Source of the DNA: Candidatus Eremiobacteraceae bacterium
GTDB taxonomy: Bacteria > Vulcanimicrobiota > Vulcanimicrobiia > Eremiobacterales > Eremiobacteraceae
Reading direction: 5' to 3'
DNA: 51,234 bases
Assembly (NCBI GenBank): GCA_036511855.1
Contig: DATCBN010000030.1
Coordinates: forward strand, 1 to 51,234
Shown: positions 38,788 to 51,206 of the stretch, in pieces
Numbering within the stretch: position 1 is the first letter of the stretch
Layout of the letters: the number at the start of each line of letters is the position of its first letter
The notes under the pieces: generated by a model
What the model was told of the DNA's origin: nothing
Database searches by the model: none
The model's input: the letters and a program-made list of their open reading frames with translations, nothing else
Program-made: the position numbers and the translations under genes

Positions 38788-39633
38788 TCAGTTCTTGATG
38801 CCGATGATCTTTTTAAGGCCGGGTGCACTGCCTGGCACCACTTCGAGCAAGCCGAAACGGGCGGTGGTCATCGCTTCGCGGATCGCGGCGTCGGTGAAGT
38901 AGCGCCGGCAGCGCGCGATTTCGAAGATCTTGCCGTCGGTCGGCACGACGTAGTGGCGGATCACTTCGGCGGACGCATCCGCGTCGTAAAGCCGCTCTTC
39001 CAACTGCAGATTCGGCACGTCCGTGAACAACGATGATTCCGCTTGAACGAACTGCCATGCGCGGACATCGCCCGCCGCGCTCGCGGCGTCGGCGAACTCG
39101 ATGGCGGCTCTGCCGCCCGAGACGAGCGCGCGTTCGACAACGGCCAGCAGGCGGTTGCAATCGGCCGGCGCGAAATCGGACAGGCCGCCGCAGGTGAGGT
39201 AAGCGCCGTCGTATGCATCTTCGATGGCGAGATCGCAAACATCTAGTTCGCGAAAGTCGACGGCAAGACCGAGGTTCTTGGCGGTTTCGCGCGCGAGCGC
39301 CACGGCCCCGGGTCCGATGTCGATGCCGGTCATCCGGAATCCGCGCAACGCCATCCCCACGGCGTGCCTGCCGTTGCCTGCGCAAAGGTCGAGGATGCGC
39401 GCTTTAGGTTTGGCCTGCAACGCCGAGATGAGCGATTCTACTTCTTCGCCGGTCTCGTTCATGCCGATCTGCTGCGCGTAGTCGGCACGGCGCACGTAGC
39501 GTTTGCTGAAGTCGGGATCGCTCCATGGATATGTCGTCGCATCGACCCAAGGAGTGGGGCGCTCTTTGCGATCTGCGATTGCGCGGACCAGCGCTTCGAG
39601 CGGCCCGAATTGGTTGCGAACGTCGACAGCCAT
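38788..39633 (-). CDS. SAM-dependent class I methyltransferase
   Basis: 281 residues. A Rossmann-type methyltransferase core contains motif I ILDLCAGNGRHAVGMA (about 80-95), GIDIGPGAVALARE (acidic end of beta-2), and LDVCDLAIEDAYDGAYLTCGG (motif II region), followed by a beta-rich C-terminal part (LQLEERLYDADASAEVIRHY) seen in small-molecule methyltransferases. The substrate is unknown. AGGAG lies before the ATG. It is separated from hemD by about 160 bp, so it is not clearly part of the haem operon. Confidence 0.82.
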   Translation of the reverse strand: MAVDVRNQFGPLEALVRAIADRKERPTPWVDATTYPWSDPDFSKRYVRRADYAQQIGMNETGEEVESLISALQAKPKARILDLCAGNGRHAVGMALRGFRMTGIDIGPGAVALARETAKNLGLAVDFRELDVCDLAIEDAYDGAYLTCGGLSDFAPADCNRLLAVVERALVSGGRAAIEFADAASAAGDVRAWQFVQAESSLFTDVPNLQLEERLYDADASAEVIRHYVVPTDGKIFEIARCRRYFTDAAIREAMTTARFGLLEVVPGSAPGLKKIIGIKN

Positions 39634-39796
39634 CGTAGTGGAATCTCCTAGCGTAGCGACGGTCCCATGCTTGCGCCATCGATGCGCGAGAACCGTTCAT
39701 CTACTATTAGGGTTCGGCGCTTCCGCCGTCGCACCGCAGGCGCGCCTTGCTGATTTTATGTGACGCAGCGCACATCGGCCCGATATCCCGCGAGCG

Positions 39797-40597: not shown

Positions 40598-41879
40598 GCT
40601 CGAGATCGCGATGCAAACCGTCTACGTCGAGCAAGCTCTGCAGCGCGTCGGTCTCGAAAACGTCTTGCGAGCGATCGGCGATCGTCTCTCGCAAATGCGT
40701 CACCGGCGCGTGGAGCAGCCGGTTGACGATCGCTTGGCTCGCGGACTCGATGAGCTCGCGATCGCGATCGCTCAAGCTTCCAAGATTCGCGAACAGCTTC
40801 TCGATTTCTGCCGCGCGGACGGCTTCGGCGCGCCTTCTAAGGTCGGCGATGAGCGGCGCCGCCGCTCGGGAAACATACCAGCGGGTATAAGCCGCCACGC
40901 TTGCGGCGACGATCGCTTCGACGGCGGGTATCTCCTCACGGCGTCTTTCGATGTGGCCCGCAACGATTTGCCGCAGATCGGCCAGTTCGTAGATCGTCAC
41001 CGCGGCGATGTCGCGAGCTGCCATTTCGACGTCGCGCGGCGTGGCCACGTCGATGACGAGCAGCGGCTGTCCGACCCGCGAACGCACGGCCGCCCTGATC
41101 GCGTCCGCGGAGATCACCGGCGCGCCCGCGCCGACGGCGGATATCACCAGATCCACATTCGCGAGCAGCGCGGGCACGTCGTCGAGCCCGGCGCCGTCGG
41201 CGCCGATTTCGTGAGCGAGCTGTTTTGCTTTGGCCACGGTGCGGTTGGCGATCACAAGCGAAGCGGCGCCGCGGGCGGCCAAGTGGCGCGCGACGATGCC
41301 GCCCATCTTCCCGGCTCCCACAACAAGCACGCGCGCCGCCCGGATATCCCAATGCCGCGCTGCGAGCTCGACCGCCGCAGATCCGAGCGAAACGGCGTCG
41401 TGGCCTATCGCGGTCTCGGTGCGAGCACGCTTTCCCGTCTCGAGCGCTTTGCGGAAAAGATGATGGAGGTTGCTGCCTGCAGTGCCTGCGAGTTCCGCCG
41501 CTCTCAGCGCATCTTTTACTTGCGCGAGTATCTCTGCCTCGCCGACGAGCATGGAATCGAGACCGCTCGCGACCTTGAAGAGTTGTTCGACCGCTTCGGC
41601 GCCGAGCATCGTGTACAGATATTTGTCGAAGTCGTCGACGCGCATCGATCGATACGTCGTCAGGAATTCCTTGAGCTGAGCCACGCCGTTCTCGAAGTCG
41701 CCGACATCGGCGTAGATCTCGAGACGGTTGCACGTGGAGACGATCGCCGCTTCGCGGACCTCAGGGTATTCGTGAAGCACACCGAGCGCCTCGATGATGC
41801 GCCCGGGAGGAAAAGCGTGGCGGTCGCGCACGTCCGGCGGCGCGGTTCGATGACTCAGTCCGAGGACGACGATCGGCAA
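40548..41879 (-). CDS. hemA: Glutamyl-tRNA reductase
   Basis: 443 residues; NADPH-dependent reduction of glutamyl-tRNA to glutamate-1-semialdehyde, the first step of C5 haem synthesis. N-terminal catalytic domain with GLSHRTAPP and the nucleophilic Cys50 in STCNRLEIYA; the conserved GLDSMLVGEAEILAQVKDA; the NADPH domain with VVGAGKMGGIVARHL and ANRTVAKA; a C-terminal helical dimerisation domain. The start is TTG. A 62-bp gap separates it from rex, the widest inside this operon, and could hold an internal promoter. Confidence 0.95.
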   Translation of the reverse strand: MPIVVLGLSHRTAPPDVRDRHAFPPGRIIEALGVLHEYPEVREAAIVSTCNRLEIYADVGDFENGVAQLKEFLTTYRSMRVDDFDKYLYTMLGAEAVEQLFKVASGLDSMLVGEAEILAQVKDALRAAELAGTAGSNLHHLFRKALETGKRARTETAIGHDAVSLGSAAVELAARHWDIRAARVLVVGAGKMGGIVARHLAARGAASLVIANRTVAKAKQLAHEIGADGAGLDDVPALLANVDLVISAVGAGAPVISADAIRAAVRSRVGQPLLVIDVATPRDVEMAARDIAAVTIYELADLRQIVAGHIERRREEIPAVEAIVAASVAAYTRWYVSRAAAPLIADLRRRAEAVRAAEIEKLFANLGSLSDRDRELIESASQAIVNRLLHAPVTHLRETIADRSQDVFETDALQSLLDVDGLHRDLERDLRETLAPVAKRHGE

Positions 41880-41941
41880 AGTACGTCAAGCGTTCTCGCG
41901 GCGCAGCGGCAAACCTCGCACCGTAACCCGGGACAATAAGA

Positions 41942-42634: not shown

Positions 42635-43905
42635 AGCGATGCGCGCGCTGCGGCGACCGTGCGCGCGATGTCATCCGGGCTGTGCGCGAGCGAGACGAAG
42701 GCGGCTTCGAATTGCGACGGCGCCAGATAGACGCCGCGCTCGAGCATGTTATTGAAGAAAGCGGCGAACGACTTGGTGTCCGCCTTTTTAGCGCTCGCAA
42801 GATCCGTCACGGGCGTCGCGCTGAAGAAAAAACCCCACAACGACCCGGCATGCGCGGTCTGGACGGAGACGCCGGCGGCGGCGAACGCGTCGCGCCAGCC
42901 GCGTTCGAGCAGCGCAGTTTTCGACTCAAGCCGCTCGTAGACGCCCGGTTCGGCAAGTTCGCGCAACTGCGCGATGCCGGCCGCCATCGCGAGCGGGTTG
43001 CCCGAGAGCGTGCCCGCCTGGTAGACATCGCCGCTGGGCGCGAGCCGTGTCATTATTTCCCGCCTACCGCCGAACGCGCCGACCGGAAGGCCGGCGCCGA
43101 TCACCTTGCCCAAGCACGTCAGGTCCGGCACGATGCCGTACACCGCCTGCGCGCCGCCGTACGCCACGCGGAAGCCCGTCATCACTTCGTCGAAGATGAG
43201 CAGCGCGCCGGCGCGCGCGGTGATGTCTCGCAGCCCCTGCAGATAACCTTGACCCGGCAGCACCAATCCCATGTTGCCCGCGACAGGTTCGACGATGACG
43301 CATGCGATTTGGCCCGGGTTGCTTTCAAATGCAGCTTCGAGCGCGGCGGCATCGTTGTACGGCACGACGATCGTGTCGGCGGCTTGGCTCTTAGACACTC
43401 CCGGCGAGTCCGGCACGCCGAGGGTGAGCGCGCCCGATCCCGCGCTGACCAACAACGCGTCGGCGTGACCGTGATAGCAGCCGGCGCACTTCACGATCTT
43501 GTCGCGTTTTGTGAACGCGCGCGCCAACCGCAGCGCGCTCATGCACGCCTCGGTGCCTGAGTTGACGAAGCGCACGAGCTCGATCGAAGGCATGGCCTTC
43601 GTCACGAGTTCGGCTAGCTCGACTTCGAATGCGGTGGGCGCGCCGAACGAGGTGCCCATGCGCGCGGCCCGCTCGATCGCTGCGACCACGGCTTCGTGCG
43701 CGTGCCCGAGGATGAGCGGCCCCCACGAGCCCACGTAGTCGATGTACTCATTTCCATCGACGTCGTAGATCCGCGAACCTTCGCCGCGGGCGATGAAGCG
43801 CGGCGTGCCTCCAACCGCTGCGAACGCACGCACCGGCGAATTGACGCCGCCGGGGATGACGCGCCGCGCCGCCGCGAACAACTCAGTCGATCGTGGGGTG
43901 TTCAT
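42631..43905 (-). CDS. hemL: Glutamate-1-semialdehyde 2,1-aminomutase
   Basis: 424 residues; PLP enzyme converting glutamate-1-semialdehyde to 5-aminolaevulinate. Motifs: [71 protein letters not shown] and Schiff-base Lys267 in [17 protein letters not shown]. Length is typical. It overlaps the mobA-like stop upstream and rex downstream, each by 4 bp (ATGA). Confidence 0.97.
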
Positions 43906-48233: not shown

Positions 48234-49115
48234 TTATTTGTAAGAGTGAAGCCCGCTGATCCAGATGTTCACGCCGAAGTAGCAGAACATGATGCTGGCG
48301 AATCCGACGATGGACGTCCAAGCCGAATTGACGCCGCGCCACGAAGGCCGCGTGTGCATGTGCAGGTACGCTGCGTAGACGAGCCACGATACGAGCGCCG
48401 CGGTCTCTTTCGGGTCCCACTGCCAATATGCACCCCAGGCGTCGTGCGCCCAAAGCGCACCCAAGACGATTCCGATGGTGAGCAATATCTCGCCGACCGC
48501 GACGACGCGGTACGTGACCACGTCGAGCTTAGACGACGGCGGCACGTTGACGAGCCAGGCTTGTGGCGTGGCCGCCTCTTCGCTGCGCCGTTTCAGGAGA
48601 AAGAGAACGCTCGTCGCGAACCCGATCAAGAACGATGCATATGCAGCCAACACGATCGGCACGTGGTAGACGATCCAATATGATTTGAGCGACGGTACCA
48701 GGGGCTCGAGCCCCTTGTTCCAACCGCTTGCGTAGGCGAGCAAGAGGTCGGCGACGGCGAACACGATCGGACCCGCATACCAGATCTTGAAGCGCGCGCC
48801 GAACGTGACGAAGAGAAGCACCGTCCAGAGCACGACCACAGAGAGCGAGCCATAAAGATCATTCCACGGCACGTGGCCGCTGTAGTACCACCGCAGACCG
48901 AGGCTTACGATCTGGCATGCGGCTCCGCCGACGGCAATCGAGACGCCGGCGAATAGCACCACTCTGTTCTGGAAGAACCACCAGCCGACGAAGACCGCGA
49001 ACGCGAACACGTAGATGATGACGGCCGCCAAGTACCATTCCATGTACTGCAGCGAATGCGCGGTCATCGCCGCGGCGGCGTTTGAGTTGTACTGCGAGTA
49101 GTTGGTATCAGGCAT
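48234..49115 (-). CDS. ccsA: Cytochrome c biogenesis protein CcsA (ResC)
   Basis: 293-residue membrane protein of system II cytochrome c maturation; with ResB it exports haem and attaches it to apocytochromes. The haem-binding WWD motif is clear (ALWAHDAWGAYWQWDPKET), with flanking membrane helices and conserved histidines such as WIVYHVPIVLAAYASF and YLHMHTRPSWRG. Its start overlaps the resB end by 8 bp, so the two are translated together. The length (about 290) is that of the short CcsA/ResC form. Confidence 0.95.
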   Translation of the reverse strand: MPDTNYSQYNSNAAAAMTAHSLQYMEWYLAAVIIYVFAFAVFVGWWFFQNRVVLFAGVSIAVGGAACQIVSLGLRWYYSGHVPWNDLYGSLSVVVLWTVLLFVTFGARFKIWYAGPIVFAVADLLLAYASGWNKGLEPLVPSLKSYWIVYHVPIVLAAYASFLIGFATSVLFLLKRRSEEAATPQAWLVNVPPSSKLDVVTYRVVAVGEILLTIGIVLGALWAHDAWGAYWQWDPKETAALVSWLVYAAYLHMHTRPSWRGVNSAWTSIVGFASIMFCYFGVNIWISGLHSYK

Positions 49116-50286
49116 AGGCTTTCACCGTACTGACATCGTCCGGGGCGGCGCTTTTGGCCAAGGCTTCGCGCCATCCGGATACGAGCGCAGCGAAATCGTC
49201 CTCGTACATCGCGTTGCCTTTCGTGGTCGTGACCGCGACGTCCGCCTCAACGCCGGAAGCACCCCGCCGGACCCGCGCATAGAGCTTGACGGGTAGAAAG
49301 AACAACGACATCACGAAGCCTGCGATGAGGATCGCGACGCCGAGACCGACATAGTCCTCGCCCGGATCTCGCCGGTACGTCATGCCGGACCACGCGATCG
49401 GCGCGAGTGCGGTGACTTTGTAGCCGTCGCCCACATCCACGGTCTTGCCGACCGGAAGGATGATCGGTTTGTCGGTCGTGGGGATGTTGTCGTGAAACGC
49501 CCAGAACACGTACTCGTCTGTCTTCGGCAGCCGCACACCCGGCGGCAGTTGCGACGGATCGCTCGGCCCCGCCATGGTCATGAATTGCACGCCGCGGCTC
49601 GTTCCGGGAAACAGCACTTCATCTTGCGGCATCAAGCGCTGTGCTCCGTCGACTGCGACCGGCTTACCGTGGCGCGTCACCGCGAGCCTTCCGGCAAAAC
49701 CGTACGAAGCTTGGTAGATGTAGATACCGTCATGGGTCACGTACGGATGATTCACGGTGACGCTCGGCGCAGCGTTGTCGTCGGGTCCGGCCAGCGCCAC
49801 ATCGGATTGGAAACTCGACGCTTGATAAAACGTCCCGGTCGGCGTCTGGACGGGCTCGAACGTCGCCGTAAATTTCCGCAGCGTCAATTGCAGCGGCGTT
49901 TGCGCCACCGCGATCGTCTGGCCGTCGAATGCCATGAGCTGGCCGCGGATGCCGAATTTCCAGCCCAAGAAGATGCCGATGCACAGCACGACAAATCCGA
50001 GATGCGCCACCAACACGCCGTAACGCGCCCACTTCTGGCGGTGCGCGAACGCCCAGTGGGCGCCGTCTATTTCCTGCGTTCGCACGTTGAACCCGCGCTG
50101 CTTGAGATACGCATCCGAAGCAGCAGCGGCCGCCGCCTGCGTTCCTGCCACATGCGCGCTCGCCCGCAAGGCGAAGTGCTCGATGGGCACTGCCCGGTCG
50201 GCGGGGAAGCGCTTTGGGATGACGCGTCTGAAGGTGCACACCGACATCGACACGAGCAACAGGACGACGAGCGAGATGTAGGGCAC
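49108..50286 (-). CDS. resB: Cytochrome c biogenesis protein ResB, main part (downstream of an internal TAG)
   Basis: 392 residues from a GTG that is the first start available after the internal stop. It contains three of the four ResB membrane helices (about 2-18, 90-112 and 322-342) and the large periplasmic domain. CTFRRVIPKRF after the first of these helices is typical of ResB. The reading frame is continuous, without any frameshift, with the 51-codon fragment upstream; only TAG at 50347-50349 separates them. If translated from this GTG the protein would lack helix 1. It may be a broken gene, need readthrough, or reflect a sequence error. CcsA follows with an 8-bp overlap. Confidence 0.85.
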   Translation of the reverse strand: MPYISLVVLLLVSMSVCTFRRVIPKRFPADRAVPIEHFALRASAHVAGTQAAAAAASDAYLKQRGFNVRTQEIDGAHWAFAHRQKWARYGVLVAHLGFVVLCIGIFLGWKFGIRGQLMAFDGQTIAVAQTPLQLTLRKFTATFEPVQTPTGTFYQASSFQSDVALAGPDDNAAPSVTVNHPYVTHDGIYIYQASYGFAGRLAVTRHGKPVAVDGAQRLMPQDEVLFPGTSRGVQFMTMAGPSDPSQLPPGVRLPKTDEYVFWAFHDNIPTTDKPIILPVGKTVDVGDGYKVTALAPIAWSGMTYRRDPGEDYVGLGVAILIAGFVMSLFFLPVKLYARVRRGASGVEADVAVTTTKGNAMYEDDFAALVSGWREALAKSAAPDDVSTVKAYA

Positions 50287-50346
50287 CGAGTGGAAGACGC
50301 CGTCGAGGTGAAGCCGGATGACCAGGTTCGCGACCGCCGACGGATA

Positions 50347-50502
50347 CTATTGATAGTAGTGATCCGGCGTCTGATTCTGATCGATGATCGTGCCGACGGT
50401 CGTCGCGGCCGCCCACACGCAGAACACGGCGACCGGAAACAGCACGTTGCTGAGCACGTCGAGCACTTCGTCTGCGAACGGCCTCCGGCGAGTGGTGCTC
50501 AT
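50347..50502 (-). pseudogene. resB: ResB N-terminal fragment ending at in-frame TAG
   Basis: 51 codons encoding the ResB start: DEVLDVLSNVLFPVAVF, the first transmembrane helix and the family's GTIIDQNQTPDHYYQ, then TAG. After the stop the same frame continues YPSAVANLVIRLHLDGVFHS into the ResB body, which fits the family (GT-IPQ-Q-P-FY...YG...LGL-VYHS). The ATG overlaps the tatC stop as ATGA, which shows that this is the native resB start. The original gene was therefore 49108-50502 (464 codons plus stop), split by one nonsense codon. Confidence 0.85.
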
Positions 50503-51206
50503 GCCGGTGCGATTTTCGGCTGCGTGACACGCACCACCGCGATGCTCGCGAGATACAGCCCGAGCAGCGGAAGTGCCAGCAGGCCCATGGTCAACGGATT
50601 GCCGTCGGGAGCGGCGACGCCGGCGAGGACGCATATCACGACGGTCGCGTGGCGCCACTTGTCCGCGAGCATCTTCGCGTTCACCAAGCCGATGCTCGCG
50701 AGGATCGAAAGCACGATCGGAAGTTGGAACATGACCGCGAAGATGCCGAGCAAGACGGTGACGAAGCCGATGGTCGGCTCCAACTGATACGTGCCGACGA
50801 GGCCCGCCTGCTGCGTGAGGCTCAGAAGCGCGCGCAGAACGAACGGCAAGATGAGAAAGCCGCAAAATGCGATGCCGAGCGCGGACATGAAGAACGACGG
50901 GATCACGTACCATCCGATCCGGCCGCGGACGCGGCGATCGAGGGCGGGTGCGACAAACGCGTAGAGTTGATAGAGCACGACCGGCATGCCGGCCACGACC
51001 CCCGCGAGCAGCGAGAGCTTGATCTCTACCGTGATGATCTCTGCCGGCGAGAACACGTGCAATTGAATTCCGTTCAAGAAGCGCTGCTCGACCCAGTTGA
51101 GCATGCGCGGCATCAGCGGAAAGGCGACCGCTGAAATAACGACGACGGTGATGATCGAGATGAAGAGGCGGTTACGCAGCTCGGCGAGGTGCTGCGTGAA
51201 CGTCAT
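50499..51206 (-). CDS. tatC: Sec-independent translocase subunit TatC
   Basis: 235 residues with six transmembrane helices; receptor core of the Tat system that exports folded cofactor-bearing proteins. Motifs: TFTQHLAELRNRLF at the N-terminus, FSPAEIITVEIKLSLLAG (first periplasmic loop and helix 2), MPVVLYQLYAFVAPAL, and the late NPLTMGLLALPLLGLYLASI. The frame stays open to the window edge (EEKLVDDVE before ATG 51206), so the true start may lie beyond the window. It ends overlapping the resB ATG by 4 bp. Confidence 0.93.
   Translation of the reverse strand: MTFTQHLAELRNRLFISIITVVVISAVAFPLMPRMLNWVEQRFLNGIQLHVFSPAEIITVEIKLSLLAGVVAGMPVVLYQLYAFVAPALDRRVRGRIGWYVIPSFFMSALGIAFCGFLILPFVLRALLSLTQQAGLVGTYQLEPTIGFVTVLLGIFAVMFQLPIVLSILASIGLVNAKMLADKWRHATVVICVLAGVAAPDGNPLTMGLLALPLLGLYLASIAVVRVTQPKIAPA

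Follow-up and report, generated by a model that had tools for sequence, protein, structure and literature searches.

Is the in-frame TAG in the resB gene of this Candidatus Eremiobacteraceae genome a lesion of the species, a codon that is somehow translated, or a change confined to the draft sequence? The gene lies in a stretch of 51,234 bases (the window), which comprises all of contig C30 in draft genome G000 (3.07 Mb, 112 contigs, 96.4 percent complete). On the minus strand, a frame of 464 codons, codon 52 counted, runs from an ATG at 50502 to a TGA at 49110-49108. The sole stop before that TGA is a TAG at 50349-50347, which is codon 52, and the translation around it reads MSTTRRRPF...HYYQ*YPSAVANL... 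(asterisk, stop). Upstream of the stop are codons 1-51 (50350-50502, minus strand), an N-terminal part with the first hydrophobic segment; downstream are codons 53-464 and the natural TGA (49108-50346, minus strand), with three more. The four segments were located by hydropathy and are centred on residues 13-31, 73-91, 162-180 and 385-403, and the stop falls between segments one and two. It is 885 bases away from the contig end at 51234.

Both neighbours of resB on the minus strand are intact. The upstream tatC (50499-51206) matches PF00902 over positions 1-208 of 208 as well as TIGR00945, and the ResB partner ccsA (also called resC; 48234-49115) matches Cytochrom_C_asm (PF01578, 3e-49) and TIGR03144 above its cut-off. 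The TGA of resB overlaps the start of ccsA, and the ATG of resB overlaps the tatC stop in an ATGA (50499-50502). This overlap is also found in two other family members, G005 and G012; in the rest of the family the two genes are separated by a spacer whose length differs between genomes. A tatC-resB spacer shorter than that of the genus sisters G001 and G002 was weighed as a possible second lesion but set aside, the same ATGA being present in G005 and G012.

The part of resB after the TAG was sufficient by itself to match the Pfam ResB family (PF05140) at 9.4e-46 over profile positions 41-485. In a whole-genome search the match crosses the stop, covers positions 6-485 of 486 and is annotated with '1 TAG'. 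Amino-acid identity to G001 is 0.88 over the 40 residues before the TAG and 0.82 over the 40 after it; for G002 the values are 0.90 and 0.88. Judged by this comparison, the arrangement is more than a chance layout of open reading frames, because the identity to G001 is high on both flanks. The original prediction described resB as one gene with a single nonsense codon at position 52, family-like sequence on either side of it and intact CcsA and TatC, and each of these points is borne out. The locus resembles ResB/CcsB of System II (PF05140; fused CcsBA in PDB 7s9y/7s9z) in its near-full profile match, its four hydrophobic segments, its CcsA partner with a family match of its own and a tatC-resB-ccsA order common among relatives. 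It differs in that the single uninterrupted frame of a ResB/CcsB is broken by the TAG at codon 52. A profile search of solved structures matched CcsA/CcsBA entries at about 1e-4 to 1e-5, with matches that start at profile position 149, approximately the third hydrophobic segment, and give codon 52 no structural placement.

A comparison with sister genomes had been suggested with the original prediction. Codon 52 is a sense codon in all 13 other family genomes. In seven of them, including both genus sisters, it is GAG or GAA, and in six it is another sense codon. G001 and G002 thus both encode Glu, and the codon of one sister is a single substitution from TAG. The residue-52 column is variable, with E, K, T, F, S and A among 14 aligned relatives and M elsewhere. 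The search was extended to 117 genomes of the class, of which 111 gave a ResB match and six, uninformative here, gave none. Only G000 has an internal ResB stop among the 111, some of these matches being cut by contig ends. A stop within the match was flagged in fifteen genomes, namely G000 and 14 others whose stops lie in its last 17 codons and were rejected as natural C-terminal ends; G044, a seeming second case in a first search, was rejected for the same reason. A seeming frameshift in G076 proved to be a run of N interrupting the sequence, and in some genomes (e.g. G055, G058) pieces of ResB lie on separate contigs. The genomes searched did not include a second assembly of the same species. 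The pattern around the TAG had no match in viral contigs, and a search of plasmids returned one distant ResB. No report of a resB nonsense codon in this phylum was found by title in the literature, a result that does not prove there is none.

On the available evidence, TAG is an ordinary stop in this genome. Release factor 1 is encoded by an intact prfA of 363 residues that scores 483 bits against TIGR00019, above the curated cut-off, and RF2 is present as prfB. The main open reading frame of prfB (contig C81, around 39381-39698 and upstream) starts late because of an apparent early in-frame TGA at a shift site, CTTTGAC, which we take to be the classical programmed frameshift site of RF2. Stop usage was counted in the 47 window frames that align to G001, with one row dropped and a few frames that may be chance ORFs. 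Among the 46 frames ending within 10 residues of the G001 end, 21 stop at TGA, 20 at TAG and 5 at TAA. A look-up of suppressor tRNAs, also suggested earlier, found the anticodon CTA in none of 41 tRNAs, a set that is incomplete. Trp, Val CAC/GAC and Ala GGC are lacking from it as well, and these are probably missing from the draft assembly or were missed by the search. The earlier view that TAG is a normal stop elsewhere in the window and that general recoding is unlikely agrees with the RF1, the tRNAs and the use of TAG.

A two-sided test was applied to assess how isolated the resB stop is. It called any in-frame stop with at least 55 percent identity over 40 residues on each side and lying outside other aligned frames. 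In the window it covered 47 frames (14,907 codons) against G001 and 29 (9,152) against G002; in about 100 kb of contig C4 it covered 92 frames (28,319) and 71 (22,386), respectively. In G000 the output was resB and one borderline case, a TGA at 41888. The latter was rejected as a broken gene, since the sister ORF is over-extended and the alignment to the G002 orthologue begins at 41879 and is free of stops. The tested frames of the window and contig C4 contained no further convincing nonsense codon, and nonsense codons are thus not common in these parts of the genome. When the test was run in reverse as a control, it returned a TGA at about 138217 of G001 contig C23, in a 138-residue ORF with flanking identities of 0.82 and 0.78. 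Chance could account for that ORF, or the gene may be broken in the sister.

The frame beyond the TAG shows little sign of decay. There is no second stop in its 412 codons and no frameshift relative to the genus sisters. Its mean amino-acid distance to 11 outgroups is 0.410 in G000, 0.417 in G001 and 0.411 in G002, and on common columns the difference between G000 and its sisters is -0.0058 (bootstrap s.d. 0.0105). When unconstrained substitutions were simulated, about 15 or more of them within 1200 bases were enough to pass the two-s.d. upper limit. Synonymous change on the G000 branch, taken from pairwise dS, is roughly 0.7 per site, a rough value near saturation, and the detection limit of some 15 substitutions corresponds to about 2 percent of it, with the same roughness. 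For the part of resB beyond the TAG, pairs that include G000 give a dN/dS of 0.17-0.21, and the two sisters compared with each other give 0.09; the corresponding values are 0.10-0.12 and 0.03 for ccsA and 0.11-0.13 and 0.06 for tatC. The rise in G000 pairs is therefore common to resB and its neighbours. Beyond the TAG, 140 columns do not vary among the 13 other members of the family, and resB of G000 differs at 4 of them, which is the largest number among 14 genomes (others 0 to 2) and could reflect mild relaxation. Three of the four changes are conservative. One column is His113, which is His in all 13 other members and Arg in G000 (50164-50166). For ccsA, G000 departs at 4 of 119 invariant columns and other genomes at up to 9. 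The marks of an established pseudogene, further lesions and relaxed selection, were not found in resB.

The gene content of the genome indicates that ResB should be needed. A whole-genome profile search found a single ResB, and the Cytochrom_C_asm family (CcsA/CcmC/CcmF) has one member, the ccsA next to resB; since this gene is single, there is no CcmC or CcmF relative of System I. Cyt_bd_oxida_I, subunit I of cytochrome bd, had no match in G000. The Cytochrome_CBB3 domain occurs at seven places in six open frames without internal stops, and all six frames contain CXXCH. One of these frames adjoins the strongest of three COX1-family genes, on contig C93, which suggests a cytochrome-c-containing oxidase there. 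The expected need for ResB follows from the single ResB, the single CcsA-family gene, the absence of a bd match and the retained CXXCH cytochromes. Contig C74 encodes, around 42795-43379, a protein of 638 residues in which CXXCH occurs three times; it is followed by a protein that was named by eye as multicopper-oxidase-like.

We favour, with a probability of about 0.68, the reading that the TAG arose by a nonsense change of one base at the tip of the branch: it would be either a consensus or base-call error of the draft, or a null allele that is very young or carried by a minority. The position at the very tip is indicated because the stop is unique to G000, the frame after it is undiverged and no second lesion is present. 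As written, the gene would yield a 51-residue fragment with the first membrane helix only, and no working ResB, because TAG acts as an ordinary stop. We infer that an intact population, or an intact true sequence, stands behind the assembled one. In every feature seen, the case resembles ordinary point nonsense alleles and consensus errors of draft genomes, with a single base change, no other lesion, absence from relatives and normal purifying selection around the stop. Counting against this reading, the contig keeps synteny with G001 along its whole length and has no other visible error, the TAG does not lie at the contig end, and the four broken invariant columns are in the same gene. The original prediction had listed recent loss, readthrough or suppression, internal restart and assembly error without ranking them. 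Error, widened to include a very young allele, is now the most likely, and the other options are disfavoured. An error, or a null allele that is very young or in the minority, covers all of the evidence with the least effort, and fixed loss and tolerated readthrough carry lower weight.

The alternative that survives best, itself unlikely, is that ResB was truly lost, recently and to fixation, with cytochrome c maturation switched off and the rest of the pathway as yet undecayed. The TAG does truncate ResB after the first hydrophobic segment, and the intact genes of the genus sisters mean that any loss would be recent. With three COX1-family genes present, some oxidase might work without cytochrome c. 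However, the c-type cytochrome domains are free of stops and keep their CXXCH motifs, a cytochrome bd match is lacking, and the 412 downstream codons have neither a second lesion nor added divergence. Nor does an internal stop occur in the other 110 class genomes with a match, some of them cut at contig ends. A loss of long standing is unsupported, given the retained cytochromes and the lack of relaxation in the downstream frame.

Next in order, and rather doubtful, is a TAG that is real and tolerated, whether through near-cognate readthrough, an unseen suppressor tRNA, restart downstream or a ResB split into two pieces. The constraint that persists in the downstream frame and the retained pathway are in its favour, and codon 52 sits where the sequence is variable, between hydrophobic segments one and two, so that many inserted residues should be accepted there. 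The lack of tRNA-Trp among the 41 tRNAs shows that the set is not complete, and the assembly could have missed a suppressor too, although none with a CTA anticodon was found. The base after the TAG (+4) is T. In E. coli reporters a T at this place makes termination more efficient, and mean TAG readthrough was reported to lie between 0.01 and 0.8 percent of the positive control, varying with temperature and medium (PMC11126739); +4U is likewise reported to lower readthrough (PMC5289835). Programmed readthrough as a conserved feature was rejected. An open, conserved frame after the stop is what the locus shares with such systems; it differs in that the stop is conserved in none of the 13 family relatives, the +4 base is unfavourable and no suppressor tRNA was found.

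Restart within the gene, proposed originally at GTG 50286, is disfavoured as well. This GTG (50284-50286, minus strand) is the nearest usual start codon after the TAG. Its predicted anti-SD pairing is weak, at -2.1 kcal/mol, and its product would be without the first membrane helix, whose counterpart TM1 in the CcsBA model is predicted to contact TM8, a CcsA helix (PMC6299221). A CTG at 50325 has stronger predicted pairing (-5.7 kcal/mol), which counts in favour of restart. The resB ATG at 50502 has almost no predicted pairing and probably relies on translational coupling to tatC.

A more specific form, in which the TAG is fixed in the species and cytochrome c maturation runs on trace ResB made by UAG readthrough or restart, with heme attachment throttled, is very improbable. 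Reassignment of TAG to an amino acid, which has the open resB frame past the codon in its favour and nothing further, can be dismissed: RF1 is neither lost nor changed, a CTA tRNA is lacking from the 41, TAG is not rare as a terminator, closing 20 of 46 aligned window frames at the point where the sister's protein stops, and the window and contig C4 hold no other convincing two-sided in-frame TAG.

The single-base change at the branch tip is most likely an ordinary kind of event, not a new route of making protein. The species itself most likely still produces an intact ResB that serves System II in cytochrome c maturation. The locus serves mainly as a caution: where partner genes, substrates, the release factor and the constraint downstream are all intact, a lone stop codon in a draft genome should not be taken for pathway loss or recoding. 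Were the TAG nevertheless real and fixed, it would be an uncommon experiment of nature on the minimum of ResB that suffices for respiration.
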